A stretch of DNA of 64,000 nucleotides, taken from assembly GCF_022458985.1 (NCBI RefSeq), contig NC_061772.1, forward strand, positions 31,448,006 to 31,512,005, written 5' to 3'. The stretch comes from Mugil cephalus. Lineage: Eukaryota; Chordata; Actinopteri; Mugiliformes; Mugilidae. The notes beneath the pieces are model-generated. The model saw nothing but the letters and a program-made list of their open reading frames with translations. It was not told the DNA's origin and ran no database searches. The position numbers and the translations under genes were made by a program. Of the stretch, positions 18,001-54,471 are shown one piece after another. Positions within the stretch are counted from its first letter, which is position 1. Each line of letters opens with the position of its first letter.

Positions 18001-20915
18001 CTCCTCCTCCTCCTCCTCCTCCTGCTCCTGCTCCTCCTGCTCCGGTTCGTTCTCTTTGTCCTCGTCGTCTGATTGGTCTTCTGAAACTCTATGCCCCGCC
18101 CTCTCCTCTGTCTGTGCTGAGACTCCGCCCTCTTTCTGTAAACAACAACAGCAGCAGCAGCGTCAGGACTGGCTGCTGTGGGCCAATCAGAGTCCAGGAT
18201 GTTGGTGGGTCCAGACCCTCACCAGGAGCCCCAGCAGGTCCTCGTCCATGCTCGGGACCGGGTCTCTCCAGAACTGGAAGCTGTTGAAGGCGTCGCTGTC
18301 GGTCGTCGGTTTGTCTGAATCCACGTCTGGACTCTGAAACAGAACCGAGTTCATATGAAGACCTGAACCTCCGGGTCCTCCCAGACCCCATCATTCATCC
18401 ATTCATCTCATTCATGCTCCTGAACTCAGCTCAGATTATTAATGATGATGATGAACTGGTTCCTGATGAACTGATCAACCACTGAGAGATGATGATGTTT
18501 AAGTGGAGACAGAGTAGAAACCGTTTAGATTATGACTGATTCAAACTAGCGTCAAACCATTAGATGTTTAATCAGATCAATCTCCTTCATGTTTAATCTG
18601 TGTTGATGCGTTTCATTGTTGATGATCAAACAGACTCCATCTTTATGGGTTGGTTCTGCTGCTGCTGGTGCTAATGCTAACGCTAACGCTACTTGGACAA
18701 ACTGAGACACGTTCACAGTCGTTCTGCTTCATTAATCACATTAATCAAGATGATGATTAATTAACGTTAACGTTTTTTTTTGACAACATTAGTTTAAACT
18801 CTTTCTAGATGAGAGATGGATTTTAAAAGAGTCCAGACAGAGACTCTGGATTATTACAGTGTTTAAACTTGTAAAGCTCCTCATTCTGACTTAAACAGTA
18901 ATAATAATTAATAATGGGGAATCATTTGTTTCTGGGTAGAGCTGGTGTGATGCGTTCATGGTCTAGAGGACGCAGAAGGTCTAAGTGGTGCCTGGTTGCT
19001 GGGACTCACCAGTAGCCCCAGCAGGTCCCCCTCGATGCTCGGTAGCGTCTCTCTCCAGAACTGGAAGCTGTTGAAGGCGTCGCTGTCGGTTCGACTCGTC
19101 GTCTCCGTCTGTCGCACGTCTGCAGCTCCAGCAGGTTTCTACAATGTTCAGATTCACTTGATGAGGATTAATGACGTGGTTTGGTTCTTTTGATTCTACA
19201 TGAACATGGAGGAAACATCCATCTTCTTCTGGATCGTATAATGAGCTCGATGGTAGAATGTGATGACGTCCAGGAGAAATAAAATGTCCAAAGGTTGAAT
19301 TGTGTGAACGTTGCCTCCTGTAGTGAATCAGTAGCATTTTGGAGCCAGATTCACTTTAAAGATGTGGAGGAACTTTTTGGGTTCATGACCTGGAACCAGT
19401 TCTTACCTTGGAGGGGAAGTGGAAACCTGCAACGTTAACTGGAGCCTCTGGGTGGCGCTGTGTGCTCTGGATATTGACCTGGAACAGAAGACACTGAGGA
19501 TCAGGACTGAGGTTTGAACCCGGAGTCAGTTCACGGATCCAACTCCCCTCACATCTAAAGTAAAACTAAATCTGGACCAGGTCTGGGCCCTTTAATCTGG
19601 ATTAATCTGGATTAGTCCGGATTAATCTGGATTAATCTGGATTAGTCTGGACTAGTCTGGACTAGTCTGGACTAGTCTGGATTAATCTGGATTAGTCTGG
19701 ATTAATCTGGATTAATCTGGATTAGTCTGGATTAATCTGGACTAGTCTGGATTAATCTGGATCAGTCTGTATTAATCTGGATTAGTCTGGATTAATCTGG
19801 AGCAGTCTGGATTAATCTGGATTAGTCTGGATTAATCTGGATTAATCTGGAGCAGTCTGGAGCAATCTGGATTAATCTGGATTAGTCTGGATTAATCTGG
19901 ATTAATCTGGATTAGTCTGGATTAATCTGGATTAATCTGGAGCAGTCTGGATTAATCTGGATTAGTCCGGATTAGTCTGGATTACCTTGACCTGGGGCTC
20001 CGTCCTCAGGTGCTGGGACCCGACGTGCTCCAGCTCCAGCTGGTAGGTCAGAGCCAGGACTTTGATGTCGGTGGCTGAAAGACTCGGGTAGTCGCCGGTC
20101 TTCTTGGAGAACTCAGAGACTGGAGGAGACACGAGGACGTCAGAGACACACGGGGACACACGGGGACGCACGGGGACATGTTTATATAGGCTGGGGGGGG
20201 GTCACCATGTCTGATGTGCTCTGGGTGAGGCTCTCTGAAGTGGAGCTGGTAGGGGAGGAAGGCCAGACTCCTCCTGGTAGGTTTGTCTCTGATCTCGTCC
20301 ACCACGTCCTTCAGGGTGTAGATGTTCCTGCCGATGTCCTGAGACAAGAACCCAGACCAGGAACTTTACAGTCAACAGTACGGACCAGGAACCCGACACT
20401 GATCCACTCAACAGATTTCACGCGTATTATTCTGGATTCCGCTTAATTCACCTCGTATCTTAATTTTCTTATGTTGACATATTTTATATTTATTATTATA
20501 ACCTCTCATCTCATCACGCTGCCTGATGTTCTTCTACTGTCTGTCACTAATTAATTTAAGTCTAATTAGCAGAAAAGGAAACAGACATTTGACGGCTTCT
20601 CTGTTCCCAGATAATAAATCCAATAATTAATGAATTAAATAAAATCCACTTTAATGCTCCGTTAATAACGTCTCGGTTTCTCCGGAGGACGTGTGGACTC
20701 CCAGCGGCTCTCTGACGGCCTCCTCCCCGGGGAGCTGCGCTCTCCCTCCGGCCTGAACCACGGAAGCTCCGGCCTCCGCGGACCCTCCGCCGCTTCTCCT
20801 CCTCCGGCTGAAGCTCTTCTCGGAGCCCGGGGAGAGTTGGACTCACCTGGAGAGGAGTTTTCTTCAGAAACGCTGCTGCATCTGCGACAACATGCTCCAC
20901 CAGGGCGGCCGCCAT
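15003..20915 (-). CDS. nob1: RNA-binding protein NOB1 (PIN-domain endonuclease of 18S rRNA 3' maturation)
   Basis: NOB1 cuts site D at the 3' end of 18S rRNA in late pre-40S particles. Ten exons: 20847-20915, 20206-20338, 19986-20119, 19407-19478, 19010-19138, 18223-18333, 17884-18135, 17321-17418, 16214-16358, 15003-15272. All phases join, giving 1413 nt or 470 aa against 412 in human. The PIN domain opens with HVVADAAAFL (Asp12 aligns with the catalytic Asp) and continues through DIGRNIYTLKDVVDEIRDK and TGDYPSLSATDIKVLALTY. An acidic stretch precedes GGGWITPSNI. The zinc ribbon is C328-x2-C331 and C343-x2-C346 (CHACF, CPHCGNKT). The basic tail ends NPNAARKKFVKKK. The extra length comes largely from exons 5 and 6, which are tandem copies of each other. 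The start ATG lies in an AAGATGGCGGC context and is head-to-head with wdr59. Confidence 0.96.
15488..15602. repeat. minisatellite (CCAGATATGAGACCAGAA)n
   Basis: About six units of 18-19 bp in the last nob1 intron. Confidence 0.88.
16000..16160. repeat. 43-bp minisatellite with TTAGC motifs
   Basis: Four units reading TGGTAACTGTTAGCTTAGCA, CTGCTATGTAGCATGTAGCC, in the last nob1 intron. Confidence 0.9.
16410..17310. repeat. G-rich 9-mer array (GGGGGACCA)n filling nob1 intron 8
   Basis: About 900 of 962 intron bases (intron 16359-17320) are GGGGGACCA, GGGGGAGCA or GGGGGACTG units. Read in the nob1 direction they give a collagen-like GPP frame that joins exon 9 by chance; the true exon borders at 16358 and 17321 show it is intronic. 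Confidence 0.95.
18223..18333 (-). other. nob1: nob1 exon 6, second copy of the duplicated exon
   Basis: This 111-nt, phase 0-0 exon encodes SPDVDSDKPTT followed by a 26-residue block beginning DSDAFNSFQFWRDPVPSM and ending LLGLL. It is the closer match to the FWR-(N/D)P-(L/V)P motif of the mammalian protein, so it may be the ancestral copy. Seven of the eight differences from exon 5 change an amino acid. Confidence 0.88.
18640..18780 (-). mobile_element. dispersed repeat family B, inverted partial copy between nob1 exons 5 and 6
   Basis: Inverse of about 4488-4625 (GCTAACGCTAACGCTACTTG, then AAACTGAGACACGTTCACAG). It lies in the intron that separates the two duplicated nob1 exons. Confidence 0.65.
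19010..19138 (-). other. nob1: nob1 exon 5, first copy of a tandemly duplicated exon
   Basis: This 129-nt, phase 0-0 exon encodes KPAGAADVRQTETTSRT followed by a 26-residue block beginning DSDAFNSFQFWRETLPSI and ending LLGLL. The same block recurs in exon 6 (18223-18333). Over the shared 78 nt the two differ at 8 positions by my count (about 90% identity), and the first 36 nt are identical. The human family has one such block (a FWRNPLPNI-type motif). Both copies keep AG and GT borders and the same phase, so each can be used alone or together. Confidence 0.88.
19596..19983. repeat. 10-mer array (TCTGGATTAA)n in nob1 intron 3
   Basis: About 39 units alternating TCTGGATTAA, TCTGGATTAG and TCTGGAGCAG. 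On the nob1 strand the array begins at the third base of the intron. Confidence 0.94.
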
Positions 20916-33400: not shown

Positions 33401-35449
33401 TGTCTCCTCCTGCCTCCTCCTCCTGTCTCCTCCTCCTATCTCCTTCTGTCTGTCTCCTCCTGTCTCCTCCTCCTGTCTCCTCCTGTCTGTCTCCTCCTGT
33501 CTCCTCCTCCTGTCTCCTCCTGGTAGAAGTCCCGTCGCTTTAAGACCAAGAGAGAAGGAGCAGAGGGGAGTAACCGTCCCATCAAACTGGCCGGGAAAGT
33601 CATCATCCAGGAGACGTCCCGTCTGCTGCCTGTCCACAAGACCCTGGGAGACAGCTACACGTGAGACACTAGAGACTAGTTGACTAGAGACTAGGGACCA
33701 GAGACTAGAGACTAGAGACTAGGGACCAAAGACTAGGGACTAGGGACAAGGGACTGGGGACCAGATACTAGGGACTGGGGACTAGAAGCAAGCGACTAGG
33801 GACCAGGGACCAGATACTAGGAACTAGATACTAGGTACTAGGGACCAGAGACTAGGTACTAGGGACCAGATACTAGGGACTAGGGACTAGAGACTAGGGA
33901 CCAGATACGAGGGATGAGAGACTAGAGACTAGACTAGATAATAGGGACTAGAGACTAGGGACAAGGGCTCAGGGACCAGATACTAGGGACCAGAGACTAG
34001 AGGCTAGGGACCAGATACTGGGAACTAGAGTTTAGGGACCAGAGACTAGAGGCTAGGGACCAGAGACTAGGTACTAGGGACCAGATACTGGGAACTAGAG
34101 TCTAGGGACCAGCTACTAGGGACTAGAGACTAGGGCCCAGATATGGGACATGCTAACAGTGGTGTGTTTTTAGCCTGAACATGAACGACGTCCAGGACAC
34201 GTGTCAGAAGAACGCGGCGGCGGCACTGGCGGCCGGACGCAGAGACGTGGCCAAGGTCAGAGGTCACTGAGACGTTTTCGTGTCTCTGTTGGTCCACAGA
34301 GACGAGTCCACTCATGACCTGAAACTCTGTCCTCTGCAGGTCTGGGCCCTGGCGTCTGCAGCCACCAGCCAGGACCTGAGTCCAGACTCAGACCCGGACA
34401 CGGAGACACCCTGGGCCAGACACCCGTTTGGACGCCACCTGCTGGAGACTCTGTGAGTTTTACCGTCATTTATTACCACAGCTGGTAGAACGGGACGTAT
34501 AGAAGACTCGTAGCCAGGTCACGAGTCCCTGGACAGGATTTAGACACAAGACAGGAACGAGACGGGGACGTTTATTAGCAATACATTTATACTATATAGA
34601 TACAGTCCTCACGCTATGAACACTAATGTCCATATGTCCTGAGGTGTGCTCCTCTCTCTGAGGAGGAGGAGGTGGAGGAGGAGGAGGAGGAGGAGCTCTG
34701 ACTCAACCAGTTACCTGTTTGAATGAGTTTACAGTGATGCACAGGTGTCAAACATATGACCCGTGGACCAAAAGAGGCCCCTCAGAGGGTCTAATCTGGA
34801 CCCAACATACAAACATGAAGACATGAACTTCAGTTAGAAATAGGTTTTTCTATGAAAGTAACTCCAACGCCAAGAGTTCACAAAGTTCATTAAGAAATGT
34901 GGACACAACACAACACAACACAACACAACACAACACAACACAACACAACACTGAGACCTGGAACTAAACACAACTAAAGTTCATGATCCGTCTCCGTCTC
35001 CTCAGGTTGGACCACTACAGTCAGATGAGTGACGTTCAGACTCTCGCCATGATCTGCAGCGTGTTCAGAGCTCAGGCTCCGCCCCCAGACTGCTACGCCC
35101 TGTATGGACACCACCCTGCTCGCCCCTCCATGTTGCCCCCCCACCATTCCAGATATGTGAGTTAACAGCTTGAATGCATGGACGCCATGATGGCTCCTCC
35201 TCTGCCCCCTGGTGGCTGGCTGCACTATATGTAATGACCCCGCCCCCTCCATGTTAGTGGGTGGGGCTAAAGAACACGTCACATCCATTTTAGGTGGTTT
35301 CCTGCAGTGATGTAGTGTGTTGTGTCTCAGCCCAGCTTCACCTCCAGCTCCGTCACCTCCGGCTCCTGCTCCAGTACGTCAGACTCCATCAGCGCCTGGA
35401 ACCCAGGTGAGACACGCACACACACGCACACACACACACACACACACAG

Positions 35450-35481
<32 letters not shown>

Positions 35482-36058
35482 ACACACACACACACACAGA
35501 CAGACACACACACACAGACACACACACACAGAAACACACACACACAGACACACACACACACAGACCACAACACACACACAGACACACACACACAACACAG
35601 ACACACACAGACACACACACGACACAACACACAGACACACACAGACACACCACACGACACACACAGACACACACACACAACACACACACACAGACACACA
35701 CACACACAGACACACACACACAGACACACACAGACACACACACACAGACACACACACACAGACACACACACACACAGACACACACAGACACACACACACA
35801 CACCACACACACACACACACAGACACACACACACACACAGACACACACACACACACACACACACAGACACAGACAGACACACACACACACAGACACACGG
35901 ACACACAGACACACACACAGACACAGACAGACACACACACACACACACAGACACACACACACAGACACACACACACACACAGACACACACACACACACAC
36001 ACACACACAACACACAGACACACACACACACACAACAGACACACACACCACACACACA

Positions 36059-36123
<65 letters not shown>

Positions 36124-36127
36124 CACA

Positions 36128-36166
<39 letters not shown>

Positions 36167-37515
36167 AGACAGACACACACACACACACACACAGACACAG
36201 ACACACACACACACAGACACACACACACACAGACACACACAGACACACACAGACACACACACACAGACACACACACACACACACACAGGTGATTTATTCA
36301 CGGCTGTTAATTGGCAGGAAGAGACTCGGAGCTCGTTAACCCCTGGGGAGAGTCCTCCCCTGACGACTATCGCCATGGAAACCAGGTCTACACAGACCCA
36401 CGGGAACGAGAGAGGGAACAACACGACATGAACAAGAGGTGGGACGGAGGGAGGGAGTGATGGATGTAGAGGACAGACTGTGTGTGGGTGTAATGGTTCG
36501 TGTCTCTCAGGTTGCTGGACCCGTCCAACACGCTGCAGTTTGACGAGTTCAAGAAGACTTACGGTGAAATCTTGTATCGTTGGGGTTTGAGAGACAAACG
36601 AGCCGACGTCCTCAAGTTTGCCTCCTGTCCTCCTGAGCCCCACAAAGGCATCGGTACGTCCTCTGTCCTCTGTCCTCATCTCTGGACACGTCACAGCTTC
36701 AACAAACTAACCTATATCCCTCCATAGGGCAGTAACTCTTCTAATAGTCATAATATTAATAATACATTTATTCACAGGCTCCTTTCAAAACACCCGAGGA
36801 CAAATAAGACAGGCTTTAAAATACACATCAAAAGCACCGAAAACTACAAGTATACGACACTGGAAAGATAAAATAATAAAATATTTGTTAAAAATAATAA
36901 AAAAATAAAGCTTTTTCAAACATTTTCATAGAGAAAATAAAATAAATGAATTTACCACATTCCAAGCCCTTAAGAGACATTAGCATACCCCCTAGCGTTA
37001 GCGTAGCCCCAAGTGATAGCGTAGCCCCTGGCGTTAGCATGGCACCTAGCATTAGCATACCCCCTAGTGTTAGCGTAGCCCCTGGCGTTAGCATACCCCC
37101 TGGCGTTAGCGTACCCCCTGGCGATAGCGTAGCCCCTGGCGTTAGCATACCCCCTGGCGTTAGCGTACCCCCTGGCGTTAGCGTAGCCCCTGGCCCCTAG
37201 CTGATGTAACTAAGCTGTGAATGGTCCTGTTGGTAGCAGTGTGTCTAAATGTCCTCTCTGATGTCCCCGTCCCCTTCAGAGTTCGGTGTGTACTGCTGCC
37301 ATTGTCGCAGTCAGGCTCGTGGGACTCAGTGCGCCGTCTGTAAGCGTCTCACCTTCCAATGCTCCATCTGCCACGTGGCCGTCCGAGGTTCGTCCAACTT
37401 CTGTCTGAACTGTGGACACGGAGGACACACCAGTCACATGATGGACTGGTTCCGGAGGCAGGACGAGTGTCCCACAGGCTGTGGCTGCCACTGTCTCCTA
37501 CAGAGCACCTTCTGA
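21450..37515 (+). CDS. wdr59: WD repeat-containing protein 59, GATOR2 subunit
   Basis: WDR59 is part of GATOR2, the lysosome-associated complex that relays amino-acid signals to mTORC1. Twenty-six exons: 21450-21503, 22485-22534, 23192-23327, 24706-24791, 25133-25213, 25341-25378, 25532-25620, 26786-26902, 27482-27559, 27846-28002, 28130-28209, 28311-28437, 28519-28640, 28737-28901, 29377-29472, 29704-29808, 29879-30000, 30675-30828, 33527-33660, 34174-34255, 34340-34452, 35006-35156, 35331-35406, 36318-36438, 36511-36653, 37280-37515. They join in phase to 2913 nt (970 aa; human about 974). The N-terminus is [19 protein letters not shown]40 propeller follows ([42 protein letters not shown]), then an RWD domain around residues 390-495 ([14 protein letters not shown]). 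The C-terminus is a Cys/His-rich zinc-binding domain ([44 protein letters not shown]). Confidence 0.97.
22262..22378 (+). mobile_element. dispersed repeat family C, copy 2 (wdr59 intron 1)
   Basis: CAGCAGCAGCGCCACCATGT to ACCACTGGACCAGAACCAGG, nearly identical to 59282-59390. Confidence 0.7.
22690..23115. repeat. 10-mer array (AGAATACAGT)n in wdr59 intron 2
   Basis: About 425 bp; a larger block of about 200 bp (22731-22920) repeats at 22911-23100. Cys/Tyr/Leu-rich minus-strand frames are read-through. Confidence 0.94.
23458..24167. mobile_element. hAT-type MITE in wdr59 intron 3
   Basis: The 710-bp element starts TGAGGGTGTAACGATTC and ends with the inverse of TAGGGGTGTAACGATTC. It is flanked on both sides by the 8-bp direct repeat GTGAACAG (23450-23457 and 24168-24175). 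Short inverted ends plus an 8-bp target-site duplication are the hAT hallmark. Inner ends carry further copies of ATCG-rich motifs (AATCGTTTCGGATCGTATCG). No transposase frame is present, so it is non-autonomous. Confidence 0.88.
24425..24645. repeat. minisatellite (CCTGGTGGTT)n in wdr59 intron 3
   Basis: CCTGGTGGTTCCTGGTGGAC units just upstream of exon 4. Confidence 0.92.
25725..26680. repeat. minisatellite (GGAGGATCTATAGGAG)n in wdr59 intron 7, split by a TIR element
   Basis: Units run 25725-26060, are interrupted by the element 26063-26576, and resume 26577-26680. Confidence 0.92.
26063..26576. mobile_element. 514-bp terminal-inverted-repeat element in wdr59 intron 7
   Basis: The left end TGGCGCATTTCCACTAGC and the inverse of the right end TGGCGCATTTCCAGTAGC match for about 30 bp with a few mismatches and continue into ACGGTACG. 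TAG flanks both ends and may be a 3-bp target-site duplication. The element splits a minisatellite of unit GGAGGATCTATAGGAG whose copies resume directly after it. It contains no credible transposase; superfamily not assigned. Confidence 0.75.
26945..27345. repeat. minisatellite (ACAGTGGTAGTACTATAAT)n in wdr59 intron 8
   Basis: About 20 units of 19-20 bp, with TACAGTGG as the constant core. Confidence 0.93.
27577..27812. repeat. (CAA)n and (CTGGTC)n microsatellites in wdr59 intron 9
   Basis: (AAC)n at 27580-27660 and (TGGTCC)n at 27763-27810, with unique sequence between. Confidence 0.9.
28985..29095. repeat. 27-bp minisatellite, four units, wdr59 intron 14
   Basis: CTCCTCCCTCCAGTCTGTGG then GTTTAG, with small changes. 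Confidence 0.9.
30112..30465. repeat. pentamer array (TAGAY)n in wdr59 intron 17
   Basis: About 350 bp of TAGAC and TAGAT units. Confidence 0.94.
30995..31650. repeat. 28-bp minisatellite (CCTAGCCTCCCAGCTAACAG) in wdr59 intron 18
   Basis: About 23 units, each with TAGCCTCCCAGCTAA and AGTAGCTCCTCC. The same unit on the opposite strand forms a second array at 57275-57645. Confidence 0.93.
32216..32425. repeat. 21-bp minisatellite (GCAGCCGTTAGCTATCTAGCT)n, unit cut to 20 here
   Basis: About ten units with core CAGCCGTTAGCTATC, in wdr59 intron 18. Confidence 0.93.
33125..33522. repeat. pyrimidine minisatellite (CTCCTCCTGT)n forming the wdr59 exon 19 polypyrimidine tract
   Basis: About 400 bp of TCTCCTCCTGTC units that end four bases before the acceptor TAG at 33524-33526. 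Confidence 0.93.
33670..34140. repeat. heptamer array (CTAGGGA/CCAGAGA)n in wdr59 intron 19
   Basis: Fills nearly the whole intron 33661-34173. Confidence 0.93.
34743..34830 (+). mobile_element. dispersed repeat family E copy without array (wdr59 intron 21)
   Basis: GGTGTCAAACATATGACCCG followed by GTCTAATCTGGACCCAACAT. This is the only copy of the four with no tandem expansion. Confidence 0.45.
35411..36288. repeat. (CA)n microsatellite filling wdr59 intron 23
   Basis: About 880 of 911 intron bases are CACA with GACA interruptions. Thr-His and Cys-Val frames here are artefacts. Confidence 0.96.
36980..37197. repeat. minisatellite (CCCCTGGCGTTAGCGTAG)n in wdr59 intron 25
   Basis: About eleven units of 17-20 bp with core GCGTTAGC. 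Confidence 0.92.
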
Positions 37516-42242: not shown

Positions 42243-45200
42243 TCACCAGGACTCATGGGACCGGATGCTCTTCAGTCTGGAGACAGAGGACACGGAGACA
42301 CTCAGTACATTCACACAGAAGAATTATTGCTTCAGTCAGACTTTAACTGGACAACATGCTCCAAGAAGAAGGTAAACAGAGCCGGTAGGAGAACGATCTG
42401 AGGGACAGCGCCATCTACCTGCACCCTGAGGGACAGCGCCATCTACCTGCACCCTGAGGGACAGCGCCATCTATCGGCACCCTGAGGGACAGCGCCATCT
42501 ATCTACACCCTGAGGGACAGCGCCATCTATCTACACCCTGAGGGACAGCGCCATCTACCTGCACCCTGAGGGACAGCGCCATCTATCTACACCCTGAGGG
42601 ACAGCGCCATCTATTGGCACCACAAGTAAAACACATTACACACCAGATTAATGAGCGTAACTTTCTCCATCTGGTTCTGGTTTGAACGTGGCTCTGACAC
42701 ATTAACCTATGAAGACACATATCGCCCCCTAGTGTGGAGGAGGACGAGGACACAGCGTGACCTCTGACCTCTGCAGCAGCTCCTCTGTGGACACCGTCCC
42801 TCCATCTCCTCTGTCCTCCTCACTGTCCTCCTCGCTGCTGTCTTCTCCTGACGCCTCCTTCTTACTCCTCTTCTGCTGCTTCGCTTTGTGTTTGTGCTTC
42901 TTGTGTTTCTTCTTCTGTGGAAGAAAAACCAGCACAATCACAGACAGGAAGTCCTCCTCCTGCTCCTCCTGCTCCTCCTCCTGCCCCCCCCCCTCCTCCT
43001 CCTCCTCCTGCCCCCTCTCTCCTCTCCCTACTCCTGCTCCTCCTCTCCCTCCTGCTCCTCCTCCCCTCCTTCCTCCCCCCCTCTCTCCCTCCTCCTCCTC
43101 TCCCCCCCCTCCTCCTCCTTCTGCTCCTCCTCCTGCCCCCCCCCTCCTCCTCCTCCTCCTCCTGCCCCCTCTCTCCTCTCCCTACTCCTGCTCCTCCTCT
43201 CCCTCCTGCTCCTCCTCCCCTCCTTCCTCCCCCCCTCTCTCCCTCCTCCTCCTCTCCCCCCCCCTCTCTCCCCCCCCTCCTCCTCCTCCTCCTGCCCCCT
43301 CTCTCCTCTCCCTACTCCTGCTCCTCCTCTCCCTCCTGCTCCTCCTCCCCTCCTTCCTCCCCCCCTCTCCCTCCTCCTCCTCCCCCCCCCTCTCTCCCCC
43401 TCCCCTCCTCCTCCTCCCCCCCTCCCTCCCCCTCCTCTCCCTCCTCTCCCCCCCCTCTCTCCCCCTCCTCTCCTCTCCCTCCCTCCCCCCCCTCTCTCCC
43501 CCTCCTCTCCTCTCCCTCCCTCCCCTCCCCCTCCTCTCCTCTCCTCTCCCTCCTCTCCCCCTCCTCTCCTCTCCCTCCTCTCCCCCCACCTCCCCTCCTC
43601 TCCTCCTCCTCCTGCTCCTCCTCTCCTCCCCCTCCTCCTCCCCCCACCTCCCCTCCTCTCCTCCCCCTCCTCCTCCTCCTCTCCTCCCCCTCCTCCTCCT
43701 CCTGCTCCTCCTCTACCTTCTTCTCCTTCTTGTGTTTGTGCTGCTTCTTGTTCTTGTGTTTCTTCTCTTTGCTCCTCTTCCTGAGTTTCTCCTCCTGGTT
43801 GAAGGAGGAGACTGAGGAGGAGAATGACGGGTTAGTGGACAGTGACATACATCAGCCAGAACATTACGACCACCTGCCTCCTCTCTCTCTTCAAAGGAGG
43901 AGGGACATACTCACCCAGAGAAGAAGGAGGTGGCAGCTTGGGTCCAAACTCCTGTTCCTCCTGTGAGGAGGTCTGACGAGGAGGTGCAGCCGCTGAAGAA
44001 AGAGAGAAGGATGATGAAGATGATGAAGATGGAGACGTCTGAGACAGAGAGAGAGGGAGGGAGAGGGAGGGAGGGAGGGTACCTGGGATCTGGCTGGAGG
44101 AGGCAGAGGAGGAGGAGGAGGTGACGTTGAAGAGGTTGACAGGTTGTGAACCGACCCTTCCTGCCTCCTCCTTTGTGTCCTCCTCCTCCTCCTCACCGTC
44201 ACTCTCTCCCTCTGATGAAGAGGAGGACTTCTCCTCCGAGGAGCTGGCAAAGATGGCTTTGAACAGATCCATGGGAGGCCTGCTCTCCTCCTCCTGCTCC
44301 TCCTGCTCCTGGTCTCCTGGCCTGGTCTGAGAGGAGAGGAGAGGAGAGGAGAGGAGAGGAGAGGAGAGGAGAGGAGAGGAGAGGAGAGATTCAGGTTCAG
44401 GACTAAAGTACAAACCTTCATCCTCCTCATTTAAACACATTCATTAGTTAAAGTCAAACCACATCATCTCCTCCTCCTCCTCCTCCTCCTCCTCCTCCTC
44501 TACCTCCTTCTGATGGCTGCTGCTGATGGAGGGAGGTGAAGTCTGACTCCTTGCAGCACTCAGCAGTTCACTCAGAGGGTCGGTGTCCTCCTTCTTGTCC
44601 TCCTTCTTGTCCTCCTTCTCCTTCTCTGAAACATCCCACCTGGACTTCTTCCCGGTCTCTGGAGGCTTTGGAGGAGCTGAGGAGACGATGGGAGTAATAA
44701 CATGTTAAAACATTTGTTCAGGGCCTCCTCCTCCTCCTCCTCCTCCTCCTCCTCCTCCTCCTCCTCCTCCCTGTAGAGAGCGACTGTATGTAGGGACAGA
44801 ATATATGGGGGAGGCTGGTACCGGTCTGTGAGGCTCCGCCCTCCGTCACCGTCAGGAAGTTGAAGACTGAAAACTTGTCTCTCTTCACTTTGGGCAGCCC
44901 CACCATCCCAGACCTGCAGGACCAACCACAGGCAGAGGTCAGAGGTCAGGGTTCAGGGGGTCAGGGGTCAGGAGGTCAGGGGTTCAGGGGTCAGGGTGAG
45001 TGCTGTACCCGGTGTAAGGGGTCAGGAGGTCAGGGGGTCAGGGTGAGTACTGTACCCGGGGTAAGGGGTCAGGGTTTCAGGGGTCAGGGTGAGTGCTGTA
45101 CCTGGGGTCAGGGGTCAGGGATCTGGGGGTCAGGGTTCAAGGGTCAGGGGGTCAGGGGTCAGGGTGAGTGCTGTACCTGGGGTCAGGGGTCTGGGGGTCA

Positions 45201-48200
45201 GGGTTCAAGGGTCAGGGGGTCAGGGTGAGTGCTGTACCTGGGGTCAGGGGTCAGGGGTCTGGGGGTCAGGGTTCAAGGGTCAGGGGTTCAAGGGTCAGGG
45301 GTTCAAGGGTCAGGGGTTCAAGGGTCAGGGTGAGTGCTGTACCTGGGGTCAGGGGGTCAGGGTTCAGGGGGTCAGGGGTCAGGGTGAGTGCTGTACCCGG
45401 GGTCAGGGTTTCAGGGTTCAGGGGGTCAGGGGTCAGGGTGAGTGCTGTACCCGGGGTAAGGGGTCAGGGGTTCAGGGGGTCAGGGTTCAGGGGTCAGGGT
45501 CAGGGTGAGTGCTGTACCCGGGGTAAGGGGTCAGTGGTTCAGGGGGTCAGGGTTCAGGGGGTCAGGGGTCAGGGTGAGTGCTGTACCCGGGGTAAGGGGT
45601 CAGTGGTTCAGGGGTCAGTGGTTCAGGGGGTCAGGGTTCAGGGTGAGTGCTGTACCCGGGGTCAGGGTTTCAGGGTTCAGGGGTCAGGGTCAGGGTGAGT
45701 ACTGTACCCGGGGTAAGGGGTCAGGGGGTCAGGGTTTCAGGGGTCAGGGTGAGTGCTGTACCTGGGGTCAGGGGTCAGGGTGAGTGCTGTACCTGGGGTC
45801 AGGGTTCAAGGGTCAGGGGTTCAAGGGTCAGGGTGAGTGCTGTACCTGGGGTCAGGGGTCTGGGGGTCAGGGTTCAAGGGTCAGGGGTTCAAGGGTCAGG
45901 GTGAGTGCTGTACCTGGGGTCAGGGGGTCAGGGTTCAGGGGGTCAGGGGTCAGGGTTCAGGGGGTCAGGGGTCAGGGTGAGTGCTGTACCCGGGGTAAGG
46001 GGTCAGGGGTTCAGGGGGTCAGGGTTCAGGGGTCAGGGTCAGGGTGAGTGCTGTACCCGGGGTAAGGGGTCAGTGGTTCAGGGGGTCAGGGTTCAGGGGG
46101 TCAGGGGTCAGGGTGAGTGCTGTACCCGGGGTCAGGGGTCAGGGGTTCAGGGGGTCAGGGTTCAGGGGTCAGGGTCAGGGTGAGCGCTGTACCCGGGGTA
46201 AGGGTCGGGTACGTTGAACCTCTTGCAGAGCAGCTTGTCAGGATGCCACTCCCACGTCTCTCTGGTCAGTTTCCCAAACATCTTCATCTTGACCGCGGCC
46301 TGTTTATCGTCCACGTCGCCCTGGCAACCAAACATCATCATCAAGCTTTTAATGTGAAAAGCCTCCAGAGTAGCTTCCTGTTCACACTGTTAACGACGAC
46401 CACCCTGTCTACATGTAACTCTCTGACCAATCAGGAACTAATGTCCTACCTCCTGGTCCCGGGGGACGTCCACCGTGTCCCCGTCGTCCTCCTGCTGCTC
46501 TGCTCTGGTGAAGCGGGAGGACAGTGAGGAGGAGGTGGGTCGGTACAAGATGGAGGCTCGGACAAACTCCTCCCTCTCTCTGCTCCGCTCCCACTCCGTC
46601 ATCCCCACATCCAGACTCTGCTCCAGGGCGTCTGGCACCAGAGACACCTTTATATGATACTACTATACTACTACTATATACTACTATATACTATATACTA
46701 CTATATACTATATACTACTACAGGACGTTCAGTGTCTGGCTGCAGTGCATGATGGGAAGTGTAGGCCGGGGGTCTCCTACCTTTGTGGCCCTGCCGGAGG
46801 AGGCTCAGGTAGAGGTCGTAGCGAGCCTGTTTACTGGGGTTCTTATCAAACGGCCTGAAGGTCTGGGAGGAGGTCTGGACTCCTCTCCACGCCGCCAGAG
46901 CCTCCTGCTGCTGCAGGGAGGAGGAGGAGGAGGTGTAGGTGGTGGTGGAGGTGTAGGTGTAGGTGGAGGAGGAGGTGGTGGAGGAGGTGGTGGTGGTGGA
47001 GGAGGAGGAGGCTGTGGAGGTGCGAAGGCTGAGCAGACGCTCTCTGTCTTCAGGCCTCAGCAGCTCCAGAACCGACCTGGGACCTGAAAGACCAGATACA
47101 ACTATGAAACATTCAGTTTGAAGGAGATAATCAGAGTCCTGGTCCTGGTCTGTCTGGTCCTGGGTCTGGTCTGTCTGGTCTGTCTGGTCCTGGTCCTGGT
47201 CTGTCTGGTCTTGTACTGTCTGGTCCTGGTCTGTGTAGTCCTGGGTCTGGTCCTGGTCCTGGTCCTGGTCTGTCTAGTCCTGGTCCTGGTCTGTCTAGTC
47301 CTGGTCTGTCTGGTCCTGGTCTGTCTGGTCCTGGTCTGTCTAGTCCTGGTCCTGGTCTGTCTAGTCCTGGTCCTGGTCTGTCTAGTCCTGGGCCGTATGT
47401 TTGACACCGGTGGTCTAGACTCTGGGCGGTGGGGGTGGGGGTCTGTGGTGTCAGTATGTGACCTAAAGGGGGCGCTAGCAGGGCTACCTTCCAGGGTGTC
47501 CTCTCCCAGCAGCGCCCTCCTCTGGCCGGAGTCCAGCTGGTGGCGTCCTCCTTTCTGGGGCTCCTCCGTCACCATGTGGCCCCTGGAGGTCTTCAGGGCC
47601 TCGGCCAGAGCCGGACTGACCCCGGAGAGACGCGACACCTCGACCGGGGGACGGAAGTGGTGGACAGGACGGTAGTCTCTGGGCAGGGAGGGCGGGGGGA
47701 AGACCTGCAGGGAGGCAGAGACATGAGTGGACACCTTTAACTGGGACAGGAACTCTTCAGAGGGTCGGAAGGTCTCACCGTCTTGTCCTGGTCCGGTTTC
47801 TGGGCCAGAGTGAACCCCTCCAGGATCTTCCCCAGATACGACGCATCTTTACTCGTCTCTGAGACAAAGACAACAGACTCATCCAGACCAACTCTGTCAC
47901 ACACAGGTTTACTTTTAATTTCACTGGGGACAATCTTTGGTTCAGTGACTGAAATTAATCTCATAGTTCAATCTCCTGGTGTCTCCATGTGTCTTCCTTC
48001 CTGTCCTCCTGGTGTGGTACCTGTCTACCTGTCCTCCTGGTGTGGTACCTGTCTACCTGGTGGGGTACCTGTCCTCCTTGTGTGGTACCTGTCTACCTGG
48101 TGTGGTACCTGTCTACCTGGTGAGGTACCTGTCTACCTGGTGTGGTACCTGTCCTCCTGGTGTGGTACCTGTCTACCTGGTGTGGTACCTGTCTACCTGG

Positions 48201-51200
48201 TGTGGTACCTGTATACCTGGTGTGGTACCTGTCCTCCTGGTGTGGTACCTGTTTACCTGTCCTTCTGGTGTGGTACCTGTCTACCTGTCCTTCTGGTGTG
48301 GTACCTGTCTACCTGGTGTGATACCTGTCTACCTGGTGTGGTACCTGTATACCTGGTGTGGTACCTGTCTACCTGGTGAGGTACCTGTCCTCCTGTCCTT
48401 CTGGTGTGGTACCTGTCTACCTGGTGTGGTACCTGTCTACCTGGTGTGATACCTGTCTACCTGGTGTGGTACCTGTATACCTGGTGTGGTACCTGTCTAC
48501 CTGGTGAGGTACCTGTCCTCCTGTCCTTCTGGTGTGGTACCTGTCTACCTGGTGTGGTACCTGTCTACCTGTCCTTCTGGTGTGGTACCTGTCTACCTGG
48601 TGTGGTACCTGTCCTCCTGGTGTGGTACCTGTCTACCTGGTGTGGTACCTGTATACCTGGTGTGGTACCTGTCTACCTGGTGAGGTACCTGTCTACCTGT
48701 CCTCCTGGTGTGGTACCTGTCCTTCTGGTGTGGTACCTGTCTACCTGGTGTGGTACCTGTCTACCTGTCCTCCTGGTGTGGTACCTGTCTACCTGGTGTG
48801 GTACCTGTCTACCTGGTGTGGTACCTGTCTACCTGTCCTCCTGGTGTGGTACCTGTCTACCTGGTGTGGTACCTGTCTACCTGGTGTGGTACCTGTCTAC
48901 CTGTCCTCCTGGTGTGGTACCTGTCTACCTGGTGTGGTACCTGTCCTCCTGGTGTGGTACCTGTCCTCCTGGTGTGGTACCTGTCTACCTGGTGTGGTAC
49001 CTGTCCTCCTGGTGTGGTACCTGTCTACCTGTCCTCCTGGTGTGGTACCTGTCCTCCTGGTGTACTGCTGAGGAGCCGTCCAGCCGTACAATCCGTCTCC
49101 AGGTTCCTCTCCTCCCAACACGGTGTCGTATCTGGACATGGAGTCTCGGTGGTAAACCTCTTCATCGTCATCATCCTCCAGCGCCCCCACCCCGAAGGCC
49201 TGCAGAGCGAGAACAGCCGACTTCTTTATATTTAAACTGGGACTGAACTCGTTAACTCGTTAATTAATCCATTATCATGACTAATCTGATTATCATCACA
49301 CTCTGCAGGAAGGAGTTTTCTTTCCAGCTTCAAACAGCACATGAACCAAACCAAGCATACGTTAGTCGGGGATTCTGCTAGCACTTGGGCTAACGCGGCT
49401 AACAGCTGGAGACAAACCAGGTAAATCTAGTCCCACCTGTCCAGCCACGCCTCCTCCTCTCCTCGAGCCTTTCGGTGCGTCTCCAAACAGACGACTCCTG
49501 GTCTCAGACTGGGGTTTGAACAGGTCGATGTGTTCTGGTGCCACCCGGCCCAGCAGAGCCAGACCCGGGTCCAGGCCTCGGTACCCCAGACCTTGGACCC
49601 CCAGCTTGGGGCTGAAGTCCACTGGAGTCACATCTTTGGGGGCGAAGGTCACGTCCTCTGGAGCAAACTCGTCATCGTCGTCCTGAGGAAACGATTCATG
49701 CAGATGCTAAAAGTGTTGATGGCTAAATGACTCCTCCAGACGATAAATGGACCAACAGGGATTTCAGACCCACCTCTGACTCCTCCGAACCAGCAGGGGG
49801 CAACGCACAGCCGTAAACTTTGGCTCCACCATCTGTCAGGAGTAAAAACACATGAAGGCACGTGTTCCCTTTTATTTACTGACATAGACATATGTAGTGT
49901 AAGTCACTTCTGCTTGAACCTCAGCCTGTAAAGACTAGGGGGCGCTGTGTCTTTTTACCAGTTGGGTTCAGTTTTTGTTTCTACGCTTTGCTTCGCTTTC
50001 AACAATGGAGACTGAAATGCTGTCTGTGTAAATCACATGGCATCATATCTGTGACAGCATCATTTCTGAATTACTCTTATAACATCAATAAGTTCAAATA
50101 TTAACTGAACTCGTTTTTATTTTATTCACGTTTGAATGTACCCGTCTGTTGTCTGTGAGCTTTCCTCTTCACTCGAGGTCCGACCCCCTGACCTTCCCTC
50201 CAGCCCATCCTCCTCAGCAGCTCCACCCCGATGGACGTCCTGGGACACAAAACAAACGCACCTGAGACCTGAGACCTGAGACAGGACACCAAGCAGCGCC
50301 CCCTCATGGCCTGTTTAAATATCATCAGTCATGTGTTAACCAGTGGTTACCCGACAGGTGTGATTTACCTGGCTGGTGTGTTCAGGTGGGATTTACCTGA
50401 CAGGTGTGATTTACCTGGCTGGTGTGTTCAGGTGGGATTTACCTGACAGGTGTAATTTACCTGGCTGGTGTGATTTACCTGGCAGGTGTGTTCAGGTGGG
50501 ATTTACCTGACAGGTGTAATTTACCTGGCTGGTGTGTTCATGGATTACCTGCAGGTGATTTAACTGCGGTGTGATTTACCTGGCAGGTGTGTTCAGGTGG
50601 GATTTACCTGACAGGTGTAATTTACCTGGCTGGTGTGATTTACCTGGCAGGTGTGTTCAGGTGTGATTTACCTGGCAGGTGTGACTTACCTGGCAGGTGT
50701 GATTTACCTGACAGGTGTGTTCAGGTGTGATTTACCTGGCTGGTGTGATTTACCTGACAGGTGTGTTCAGGTGTGATTTACCTGGCTGGTGTGATTTACC
50801 TGGCAGGTGTGTTCATGTGTGTTCAGGTGTGATTTACCTGGTTGGTGTGATTTACCTGGCTGGTGTGTTCAGGTGTGATTTACCTGGCTGGTGTGATTTA
50901 CCTGACAGGTGTGTTCAGGTGTGATTTACCTGGCTGGTGTGTTCAGGTGTGATTTACCTGGCAGGTGTGATTTACCTGGCTGGTGTGTTCAGGTGAGATT
51001 TACCTGGCTGGTGTGATTTACCTGGCTGGTGTGTTCAGGTGTGATTTACCTGGTTGGTGTGATTTACCTGACAGGTGTGATTTACCTGGCAGGTGTGATG
51101 AGCTCCTCCAGCAGGGTGTCTCCGGGGATCAGAGCAGTCTGGGCATTGACAGCTTTCTTCTTCTCTGCAGTTTGGTCTCGCCGGCTGGATGTGAACTCCT

Positions 51201-54200
51201 GGCTGGTGGTGATCTCTCTGGGGGCGATGCCGTGTTCCCCGAAGTCCTGACAACAACATCAGGTCCAGACAACAGAACCTTTACATGACACTGACTTCCC
51301 TTCAGATTAATTCACAGCTCATCTTTCTGGACCAGAAACACAACAGAATATTAACCTTAAAGTAACGACGACTACAGACTTTTAACATTAGTTTTAGTCC
51401 CAAGAAGAACAAGGACATTAGGAGAACAGCTCAAAGACAACCAGCTGGTTCAGAAAACTGGAGGAGACGTTTCTGTCTCTAAAAGTGTTTAAAAGTCATC
51501 TGGACTCGAATGTTTCTAGAAAAGATGGTTCATGTGAGTTTGTTCTTCAGGTCTGAGGGACTGGAGGAAGCCTGAGGTTTAGATTTAAACTCTGAGGGAC
51601 GTCTCCGTCTCTACCTCCTCATCCATGTAGTCCTCCGGTCGGACATGTTGTTTCTCAGCTTTCTGTTGCCGTGACGACACAAAGGTTGACGGGGTCCAGC
51701 CTGAAGATGACGGGACAAATAAGAGGATGACAGTGGTGAATATGTCATAAACGCCTGGACCTTCTCTGGAGGAGGAGTGGACTCCACAGACTCTGACCAT
51801 CTCCTACAAACATCCACATCACACCAGCTGGAAGAAGGAGGTGGTTTGATGCTACAGACTCGTGGTTTGGTTTATGTCACATATGAATAAATAACTAACT
51901 ACTAAAGATGATTCTTAGCTGCAGCCTGATGCTGACGCCATCATGTTAACCCTCCTATTATTTATCTCGGGGCTCAATTCAACCTTTAACGTCTCTAAAT
52001 ATATTAACAATGTGCTTCATATTTAATGATATAATGTATGTGATCGTTCTTGTTTTATTTCAAGAGATATTTAGTTATTCAACAAACAGACAGACAGAAC
52101 CTGACACATGAACTTGGGAACATTTCTTAATTATTATCATTTTCTGGAGGTTTAACCTGCTGGAGTCAAACTGACCCTGAGGTTAAAGGTGAAGCCTGTG
52201 TTTGTGTTTGTGTTTGTGTTTGTGTTTGTGTTGTGCGTTTCTCTGTCTGGACTCTGACCTTCCTTAGAGCCGACAGTGTTGTAGTATCCGGCGGAGAAGC
52301 CTCCAGTGAACGCTCCGTGGAACCTCTGGTATCGGCCCTTCTCGTCTTTCACCGTCTGCTCGTGCAGAGGAACGGGTTTCTTCAGAGGCTCGTCTGGAGA
52401 GAACCATCGGAACAGTCAGACAGGTAGACCACAGAACCCTCCACAGAACCCTTCACAGACAGGTAGACCACAGAACCCTTTACAGAACCCTCCACAGACA
52501 GGTAGACCACAGAACCCTCCACAGAACCTTTCACAGAACCCTTCACAGACAGGTAGACCACAGAACCCTCCACAGACAGGTAGACCACAGAACCCTTCAC
52601 AGACAGGTAGACCACAGAACCCTCCACAGAACCCTCCACAGACAGGTAGACCACAGAACCCTCCACAGAACCTTTCACAGAACCCTTCACAGACAGGTAG
52701 ACCACAGAACCCTCCACAGAACCCTTCACAGAACCCTCCACAGACAGGTAGACCACAGAACCCTTCACAGACAGGTAGACCACAGAACCCCCCACAGAAC
52801 CCTTCACAGAACCCTCCACAGACAGGTAGACCACAGAACCCTCCACAGAACCCTTCACAGAACCCTCCACAGACAGGTAGACCACAGAACCCTCCACAGA
52901 CAGGTAGACCACAGAACCCCCCACAGAACCCTTCACAGAACCCTTCAGAGACAGGTAGACCACAGAACCCTCCACAGACAGGTAGACCACAGAACCCTCC
53001 ACAGAACCTTTCACAGAACCCTTCACAGACAGGTAGACCACAGAACCCTCCACAGAACCCTTCACAGAACCCTCCACAGACAGGTAGACCACAGAACCCC
53101 CCACAGAACCCTTCACAGACAGGTAGACCACAGAACCCCCCACAGAACCCTTCACAGAACCCTTCAGAGACAGGTAGACCACAGAACCCTTCACATGGAG
53201 ATTTAATAGATGTCAAACACACTGAAAGATGTTCTTAACTGTTTGTTAAAATGAATGAACTTTATTGTCATTGTTGTGCAAACAATGAATGTGAAAGGTC
53301 CTGAGCTCCGTACAAACTCTGGGAGGAGAATAAGGAGGAGCACATTAAGGAATAAATCTAGTAGTAGTATCTCCTCCTCCTCCACGTCCTTTATGGACAT
53401 TCTTCTATGTGGATGTTGCATTGGACTGTGTTTATACTGATGGAGTAAATCTAAACGGACTATGAGGTGACTGTGTGGTTAGCGGCCATCGGGCGAGAGG
53501 AGGCGTCTAACACAACACACAACCATTCACACTCACAGTCACACCTGGGGTCAATTTAGAGTCACCAATCAGCCTAACGAGCAGGTGTCTGGAGGGGGAG
53601 GAACCCGAGCCACTGCGCCGCCCTCATTATCATTATTAATTTCTTATTTATATTAATTCTAACATTCAGTCCAATCTGATCTCAAGGGGACCAGACCAAT
53701 AACACAACTCATACTCATGTTCTCTAAAAATATAAACATGAAGTTTATGATGTAGATGTTCTCAGCTTTAATTAACTGTTTGTTAAGGTTCAATGGTCAT
53801 TCAACGTAGAGGAAAGAAGACAAATAGAGATACATTCTAAATGATGCACTTTTGTTCCAGCAGCTCAATTAAGTTGTAATAAGAACCTGCTCCGTTAACT
53901 CGTTACGGACTCTTAATGTGAACAATGTGACAATTTAATGTGAATAGCTTCAGAACAGACGTCTGTTTGGTTCCACTGACAGAGATAAGAGTCTAAATGT
54001 GTCTCTAATATTTACTGACGCTCCAGTCTTGTCCACACTCACCAGGAATAAACCTAATGAAATAAAACACTGTTCACCACTAGGAAGCAGTGAGAGATAA
54101 ACTCTCAGTTTTGTGTTGAAATACGTGCTTCTTTTATAATAACTTATTTCCCGGAGTCATATTTAAAACTCGAACAATCATAAAAACATCACAACTACTT

Positions 54201-54471
54201 ATTCTCTGCGTGTGTACTTTAGTGTAGTTGAACGAACATTCTAAATTTACAGAATTTTGAATGAAGTCTGGTCGACAATCAGCCGGCCGTGCTAGTAACT
54301 CGGAGCTAGGTGTTAGCTAGCTGCTCCTTTCTCTAAACACGAAACAACCAAAAACTCTCTGAGTTCATAGGGACATTTAGCAGAACTAGAACGAACTCTA
54401 CCTTCTTCCAGAGGCTCCAGAGGAGTTCCATAAGTCACAAAATCCTCCTCGCTGTCGCTGTCAGCCGCCAT
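42243..54471 (-). CDS. gpatch1: G patch domain-containing protein 1
   Basis: GPATCH1 is a spliceosome-associated G-patch protein thought to activate a DEAH helicase. Twenty exons: 54402-54471, 52259-52393, 51615-51700, 51086-51246, 50142-50239, 49774-49832, 49437-49682, 49049-49199, 47779-47858, 47488-47704, 46781-47083, 46450-46631, 46193-46320, 44822-44913, 44504-44676, 44083-44326, 43915-43992, 43717-43811, 42769-42914, 42243-42276. All phases join: 2778 nt, 925 aa (human about 931). It starts [20 protein letters not shown]. The conserved N-terminal domain includes [19 protein letters not shown] and [11 protein letters not shown]. The G-patch ([19 protein letters not shown]) is in exon 5. 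Later come [80 protein letters not shown] and a Lys-rich tail ending [14 protein letters not shown]. Exon 11 has a Ser/Thr/Tyr-rich insert. Three 5' splice sites lie in tandem arrays. Confidence 0.96.
42320..42750 (+). mobile_element. dispersed repeat family D, copy with internal expansion, overlapping the gpatch1 3' end
   Basis: Starts near TTCAGTCAGACTTTAACTGG and ends near CGCCCCCTAGTGTGGAGG. The inverse copy is at about 58090-58420. This copy carries eight 28-bp internal units (42399-42622); the other copy has one. It occupies most of the last gpatch1 intron. Confidence 0.7.
42399..42622. repeat. 28-bp minisatellite, eight units, inside repeat family D
   Basis: Units AGGGACAGCGCCATCTAC, CTGCACCCTG with small changes. 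Confidence 0.94.
42950..43710. repeat. (CCT)n/(CTCCC)n tract filling gpatch1 intron 18
   Basis: About 760 of 802 intron bases (42915-43716) are pyrimidine on the plus strand and purine on the gpatch1 strand. A block near 43000-43090 recurs near 43160-43260 and 43290-43390. Confidence 0.95.
44331..44390. repeat. pentamer array at the gpatch1 exon 16 acceptor
   Basis: (GAGGA)n on the plus strand, (TCCTC)n on the gpatch1 strand. It ends in the acceptor CTCTCAG and is the polypyrimidine tract itself. Confidence 0.9.
44466..44503. repeat. (CCT)n directly after the gpatch1 exon 15 donor
   Basis: On the gene strand the donor GTAGAGGAGGAGGAGG runs straight into (GGA)n. A second (CCT)n lies at 44724-44770 in intron 14. 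Confidence 0.88.
44945..46200. repeat. minisatellite (GGTCAGGGTGAGTGCTGTAC)n in gpatch1 intron 13
   Basis: About 20 copies of a composite unit made of GGTCAGG runs plus GAGTGCTGTACC(C/T)GGGG. On the gene strand each carries CCCCGGGTACAG, the exon 13 donor junction. Confidence 0.95.
47130..47395. repeat. minisatellite (GTCCTGGTCTGTCTG)n in gpatch1 intron 10
   Basis: About 265 bp of GTCCTGGTC and TGTCTGGTC units. It ends at a family E copy (47385-47420). Confidence 0.93.
48005..49060. repeat. minisatellite (CTGGTGTGGTACCTGTCTAC) in gpatch1 intron 8
   Basis: About 50 units of 18-22 bp. On the gene strand each carries ACAGGTACC, the exon 8 donor junction. Confidence 0.95.
49250..49420 (+). mobile_element. 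dispersed repeat family B, partial copy in gpatch1 intron 7
   Basis: Matches 4714-4850 almost base for base (CACTCTGCAGGAAGGAG, CTAGCACTTGGGCTAACGC). It ends about 20 bp from the gpatch1 exon 7 donor at 49437. Confidence 0.65.
50345..51090. repeat. minisatellite (GGTGTGATTTACCTGGCA)n in gpatch1 intron 4
   Basis: About 30 units of about 19-28 bp. On the gene strand each carries CAGGTAAAT, the exon 4 donor junction. Confidence 0.95.
52425..53195. repeat. minisatellite (ACAGGTAGACCACAGAACCC) in gpatch1 intron 1
   Basis: About 770 bp of CACAGAACCCTCCACAGAAC and ACAGGTAGACCACAGAACC units. It ends about 30 bp upstream of the exon 2 acceptor. Confidence 0.95.
53240..54400. other. gpatch1 intron 1, 5' part, no feature recognised
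   Basis: AT-rich sequence without clear repeats or exons. Confidence 0.5.

Follow-up and report, generated by a model that had tools for sequence, protein, structure and literature searches.

The analysed window comprises 64,000 nucleotides (nt) of Mugil cephalus DNA on contig C3 (31,873,827 bp), 362-426 kb from the contig end, in a genome of 634.8 Mb and 24 contigs. Its minus strand carries gpatch1, whose coding region occupies positions 42243..54471 and is divided into 20 exons and 19 introns. Three of these introns, numbers 4, 8 and 13, contain long minisatellites that span the upstream exon-intron junction, with the end of the exon and the donor GT as part of the repeat unit. The 20-exon model yields a single open frame of 925 amino acids (aa), which differs from RefSeq protein P0001 of M. 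cephalus (924 aa) solely by one lysine at the exon 19 acceptor. The exon 19 start chosen here (position 42914) gives one lysine more than RefSeq isoform X2, consistent with alternative neighbouring AG acceptors. Pfam matches to DUF1604 and the G-patch domain lie in the first 201 aa, and the GPATCH1 chain of PDB entry 9s2f (species not stated) aligns to residues 2-919.

Tandem repeats make up 32% of the window. With the next 200 kb added, they account for 26% of the resulting 264 kb, in which 7.5 kb are N. Comparisons between genes refer to 84 introns of seven genes in these 264 kb: gpatch1, wdr59, katnb1, nob1, cog8, cngb1 and wdr88. The models of gpatch1, wdr59 (26 exons, P0122) and katnb1 (19 exons, P0241) are fixed to RefSeq proteins and contribute 62 introns, while the 22 introns of nob1, cog8, cngb1 and wdr88 come from predicted models.

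Junction-spanning minisatellites of gpatch1

Exon 4 (51086..51246) ends with ATCACACCTGCCAG (51099-51086), and these 14 nt form the seed of the array in intron 4. On the minus strand CTGCCAG (51092-51086) closes the exon and GTAAATC (51085-51079) follows, giving the junction ATCACACCTGCCAG/GTAAATC, as had been read in the first-pass annotation. The array called by Tandem Repeats Finder (TRF) extends over 50347..51099. Copies were counted by searching each intron with its own 20-nt junction word (14 exon and 6 intron nt), allowing up to four mismatches, and intron 4 (50240..51085, 846 bp) was found to hold 31 copies beyond the exon copy, with a donor spacing of mostly 18 or 28 bp. Two further arrays of like geometry, already noticed in the first pass, were recovered on the same strand. 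The final 15 nt of exon 8 (49049..49199) lie within a minisatellite at 47988..49063, which has 48 intron copies, 47 of them with GT, at a donor spacing of 20 or 28 bp. Likewise, the final 12 nt of exon 13 (46193..46320) belong to a compound minisatellite at 44933..46204 with 19 intron copies and a donor spacing of 31-105 bp. On the acceptor side, 107, 129 and 19 nt of introns 4, 8 and 13 remain outside the arrays. None of the 19 acceptor words of gpatch1 was repeated.

The previously proposed figure of about 30 copies in intron 4 is correct for the donor core CAGGTAA (31 occurrences) and for approximate copies (31), and fails for the exact unit ATCACACCTG(C/T)CAGGTAA, which occurs four times in the intron and five times when the exon copy is counted. 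Thirteen copies of intron 4 read CACACCAGCCAGGTAA. The full 20-nt junction word recurs without mismatch once in intron 4, six times in intron 8 and not at all in intron 13, and its inner 18 nt recur exactly 6, 6 and 7 times, respectively.

Including the exon copy, GT is kept in 32/32, 48/49 and 20/20 copies of introns 4, 8 and 13 (100/101). The copies were scored as donors with a simple matrix. By this measure 25 of the 98 intron copies exceed their exon-edge donor, 72 equal it and a single one falls below; one intron 8 copy among the 98 lacks GT. Selection on the GTs was considered as a candidate and dropped: 100 of 101 are retained, yet there is little private variation elsewhere in the unit, and no conclusion is possible. 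Read-through past the exon edge meets a stop 1 nt after exon 4 and 28 nt after exon 13. After exon 8 the frame remains open for 149 nt and passes four in-frame GTs before its stop, in agreement with the earlier remark that exon 4 differs from exon 8 in being terminated at once. RefSeq protein P0001 fits the exon-edge donor at all three junctions.

The 18-nt unit words of the three arrays gave 5, 13 and 8 matches in the genome (~635 Mb), and all 26 were located at their own junction or array. Reversed words gave no match in the same search, which passes over simple repeats and very common words. The units are therefore of local origin, derived from the boundary of the host gene. The direction of copying was addressed by comparing 120 teleost GPATCH1 proteins, Mugil included. 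At the end of exon 4, P is common to 120, A to 111 and R to 109 of the 120 proteins, and just before the end of exon 13 the residues C, R, F, N and P are present in all of them. The 9s2f chain has LITPAK and PDPYP at the corresponding positions of exons 4 and 13. Since both exon ends are largely conserved in teleosts, the exon is the likely source, and at these two junctions copying most likely ran from exon to intron. At exon 8 the same direction is likely, but less firm.

The residues TRRTE around the exon 8/9 junction (49049-49063) are unlike those of most of the 120 teleosts and rank 27th of 789 windows in atypicality. A rewriting of exon 8 by its array was considered and set aside, as exon ends without arrays rank 4th (exon 14), 39th (exon 9) and 47th (exon 10).

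Related loci and known systems

In other parts of the genome, 26 loci with tandem donor motifs were examined, a non-random sample drawn from pattern matches. The first pattern had 268 matches; about 100 of these were listed, on contigs C1-C11 of the 24, and corresponded to 18 loci, of which 16 were taken and two simple-repeat loci (on C1 and C6) left out. The second pattern contributed 10 of its 11 loci, the eleventh being already in the sample, and the third none. The distance to a contig end is below 1 Mb for 20 of the 26 loci and below 2 Mb for 23. On C1 (54.45 Mb), the longest of the contigs with a length at hand, donor-motif arrays are found near the middle, at 24.37 and 28.46 Mb, possibly as a trace of an old chromosome fusion.

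One of the loci is a second gene with the junction geometry of gpatch1, on another chromosome. At positions 1466-1591 of locus L037 (C9:61765-61890, ~62 kb from the contig start) the exon end ACACCTGTGCAG/GTGAGT is repeated with a 32-bp period in 3.9 copies. The array starts 12 nt within an exon that encodes a Kunitz domain (PF00014, 58.9 bits, profile matched through its last position). In the leucine-rich repeat exon of L039 the donor region is duplicated with no exon letters past AG, and TRF calls no array. A putative, coding-looking stretch ends at the array of L044. Inspection by eye suggested that the donor-motif arrays of L029, L040 and L050 are antisense and directly precede the acceptor of an opposite-strand exon. 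For the remaining 20 loci crude scans, based on a codon score and on inspection by eye, revealed no clear exon at the array edge.

Tandem repeats over exon-intron boundaries have been described as 'mirage' minisatellites in the lancelet genes for Adh3, globins and troponin C, and PGBD5 presents a similar case (PMC3087553, PMC3902484). The gpatch1 arrays are of this kind: the repeat covers the boundary, includes the exon end together with the GT, and consists of units that derive from the host gene itself. As in the lancelet cases, the unit combines an exon end with a splice signal. The lancelet mRNAs are reported there to be regular, and the globin repeats measure ~150-160 bp. In contrast to the lancelet, where both 5' and 3' boundaries are duplicated according to these accounts, no multi-copy array of an acceptor word was present in the 84 Mugil introns. 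Mugil further differs in being a teleost and in that a single gene carries three arrays, all at donors, of 19-48 copies. The arrays thus belong to a class of repeat that is rare yet known from earlier work, and they extend the mirage pattern of the lancelet to a teleost; their origin is probably ordinary.

A close parallel is human IFI6 (6-16/G1P3), in which a minisatellite supplies multiple splice donors (Turri 1995, cited in PMC4526556). Both arrays offer several candidate 5' splice sites. As cited, downstream units of IFI6 serve as donors in alternative transcripts, whereas in gpatch1 the protein record supports the exon-edge donor only. Tandem duplication of a sequence that contains AG/GT, as a way for introns to be gained or modified, has been discussed in the Rogers model, for potato RdRp and for human internal tandem repeats (PMC4974935, PMC2812944, PMC3087553). 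Here, too, exon sequence is duplicated along with splice signals. In contrast to the creation of introns treated in those sources, the Mugil introns were lengthened, and the one assembly analysed, taken with no outgroup, gave no sign of intron creation. Among teleosts, polymorphic minisatellites are described for introns 1 and 3 of the Sparus aurata growth hormone gene; they share the intronic location, and seeding from an exon junction is not stated in the cited account (PMC3045353). A search for fish examples within open-licence literature found no exon-boundary minisatellite in teleosts.

Tandem repeats and splice sites in the region

The first-pass annotation had proposed that three independent arrays of the same geometry point to a mechanism, for example slippage or break repair at donor sites, rather than chance. 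Seeding by the junction is supported by our data, and slippage or unequal exchange is the natural route of growth. The part of the proposal that is not supported is an attraction of arrays by donors. Tandem repeats account for 38-42% of intron and 3% of exon sequence. Coverage by repeats with a period of at least 7 in the 84 introns is 0.333 over positions +120..+150 and drops to 0.042 at the donor GT; on the acceptor side the corresponding values are 0.324 (-150..-120) and 0.012 (AG). The density of arrays is explained by this general repeat load, which is high in introns, low in exons and drops toward both splice sites.

Three of 41 intronic arrays straddle a donor by at least 8 nt, and none straddles an acceptor. 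Random placement, in which one seed unit was put in array-free intron sequence, predicted 1.06-3.35 straddles per side as compared with the three seen at donors (P for three or more, 0.07-0.68); the range reflects the TRF period taken as the unit. For gpatch1 alone 0.63-1.54 straddles were expected (P 0.007-0.17), and clustering within this gene is mildly unusual. Finding three such arrays does not clearly exceed the chance expectation. Arrays lie nearer to donors than to acceptors by a Kolmogorov-Smirnov test (P=0.015), and a sign test showed no bias (18/30, P=0.36). Some lean towards the donor side is expected because acceptors need room for the branch point and the pyrimidine tract. Repeats of acceptor words were limited to one single near-copy in katnb1 intron 14. 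In the predicted cngb1 gene a 35-bp, 1.9-copy TRF call at intron 6 and the next exon (L024, 1061-1128) takes in the acceptor AG plus a few letters of the exon; no other acceptor AG of the 84 introns lies in a TRF call.

The sequence AGGT was tested as a hot word of arrays and rejected, as it occurs in 42 of the 198 arrays of the region versus 46.3 expected. AGGTR was found in sense orientation in four of the 41 intronic arrays, the three straddling ones among them, and in antisense orientation in five. CCAGG-type words are present in 35 of the 198 arrays versus 20.3 expected. At the genome level, patterns for tandem triplets of donor motifs gave 268, 30 and 24 matches versus 537, 23 and 157 for the reversed controls and thus no consistent surplus; these matches are not independent loci, and simple repeats raise some of the controls.

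Origin of the arrays

The gpatch1 arrays are very probably mirage-type minisatellites that grew by ordinary minisatellite expansion from the exon edge near a chromosome end. The setting would be a minisatellite-rich region close to that end. The first step may have been a short tandem duplication that reached from the final 12-15 nt of the exon across the GT and a few bases into the intron. Its second copy would have landed in the intron, to be multiplied there by slippage or unequal exchange, and the exon copy would be held by coding and splicing constraint, which would confine growth to the intron side. Donor-side arrays would be tolerated because the exon-edge donor stays intact whatever number of copies follows. 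Counterparts at the acceptor would be expected to upset the branch point, the pyrimidine tract and the choice of the AG. The mature mRNA would use the exon-edge donor, and splicing at downstream copies in introns 4 and 13 would bring in an early stop and probably lead to decay of the transcript. While slippage or repair is plausible as a general mechanism, the data do not support a special part for donor sites.

Several observations weigh against this account. Straddling arrays are somewhat unevenly distributed, with 3/19 introns in gpatch1 and 0/65 in the other six genes (Fisher 0.010), a contrast to be read with the caveat that the gene was picked because of its arrays. The seed sequences are not ancestral throughout. 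A Thr codon within the exon 4 seed is common to only 18 of the 120 teleosts, while 88 have Ala, and at the end of exon 8 Mugil has TRRT where the teleost proteins mostly have TKK(R/K), which makes the exon-first order less firm there. The choice of the exon-edge donor is read from a database protein. The lack of acceptor arrays, 0/84 introns where about 1-3 were expected, fits the tolerance argument and is not strong by itself.

Alternatively, R-loops, U1 binding or microhomology-mediated break repair at 5' splice sites might nucleate minisatellites. Three arrays of like geometry in one gene, the recurrence in the Kunitz gene, the absence of multi-copy acceptor arrays and the proximity to donors in the Kolmogorov-Smirnov test would all agree with such a donor-site process. 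We consider it unlikely, since repeat density drops toward donors, the number of straddles matches random placement and the sign test is without bias. Moreover, AGGT is not enriched, AGGTR occurs in both orientations at similar numbers, and tandem donor motifs show no consistent genome-wide surplus over reversed controls. An error of assembly or annotation, by which exon ends were wrongly placed or arrays created or distorted, has to be considered because long arrays are difficult to assemble and the exon ends come from predicted proteins. The spliced protein, however, matches the RefSeq model, and in 119, 88 and 120 of the 120 teleost proteins the stretch around the junction of exons 4, 8 and 13, respectively, is as long as in Mugil. 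We regard an artefact as very improbable. Even less credit is due to the idea that the intron arrays had an origin of their own and match the exon ends through chance similarity in composition. The frequency of CCAGG-type words in the regional arrays speaks for it, but the inner 18 nt recur exactly in all three introns and the 18-nt unit words were found nowhere else in the genome.

The function of the gene raises a different explanation, namely that selection maintains the arrays as decoy or regulatory donors, with a role, for example, in tuning gpatch1 output via unproductive splicing. In Chaetomium, GPATCH1 and DHX35 are described as detecting an aberrant 5' splice site once the spliceosome is activated and as preparing that spliceosome for disassembly; in Cryptococcus and fission yeast, alternative splicing is reported to increase when GPATCH1 is deleted (PMC11958768). 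It is striking that the gene of a fidelity factor itself bears nearly a hundred decoy donors. Besides this role of the fungal ortholog, the almost complete retention of GT and the finding that only one of 98 intron copies scores below the exon-edge donor favour selection. On the other hand, young, homogenised arrays would be expected to retain GT, and variation elsewhere in the unit also consists mostly of shared types; a hand estimate gives ~4 GT losses expected versus one seen. In addition, the Kunitz gene has a like array form and no known link to splicing. Maintenance as decoys is accordingly quite improbable. In a bolder version the arrays would act as a sensor: when fidelity falls, decoys would be used, the transcripts would decay or change, and gpatch1 output would be adjusted. 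As the Kunitz gene exhibits this array form without a link to fidelity, we regard such autoregulation as a far-fetched reading.

Under the expansion from the exon edge favoured here, the arrays show how introns can lengthen out of exon sequence in a repeat-rich chromosome end. They also put the choice of 5' splice sites to a natural test: the exon-edge donors of introns 4, 8 and 13 face 31, 47 and 19 copies that keep the GT, and splicing would have to find the exon edge among as many as 47 sites of similar sequence.

Repeats of other types were observed in introns of the same region. In the predicted intron 3 of nob1 (window positions 19592-19984) the first 20 intron nt are repeated in 32 near-copies without exon letters. 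The same holds for katnb1 introns 15 and 18 (L015, 4237-4502 and 5801-6688), with 17 and 25 near-copies. These three introns represent a donor-anchored form of repeat that lacks exon seeding. Introns 19 (33668-34135) and 23 (35412-36287) of wdr59 consist almost entirely of repeat, beginning 7 and 5 nt past the donor. Within gpatch1, intron 18 has four matches to its junction word in low-complexity GGA sequence, and the repeat scan located a minisatellite of intron 1 at 52417..53189 (minus strand), away from any junction and with AGGTR on the antisense strand.
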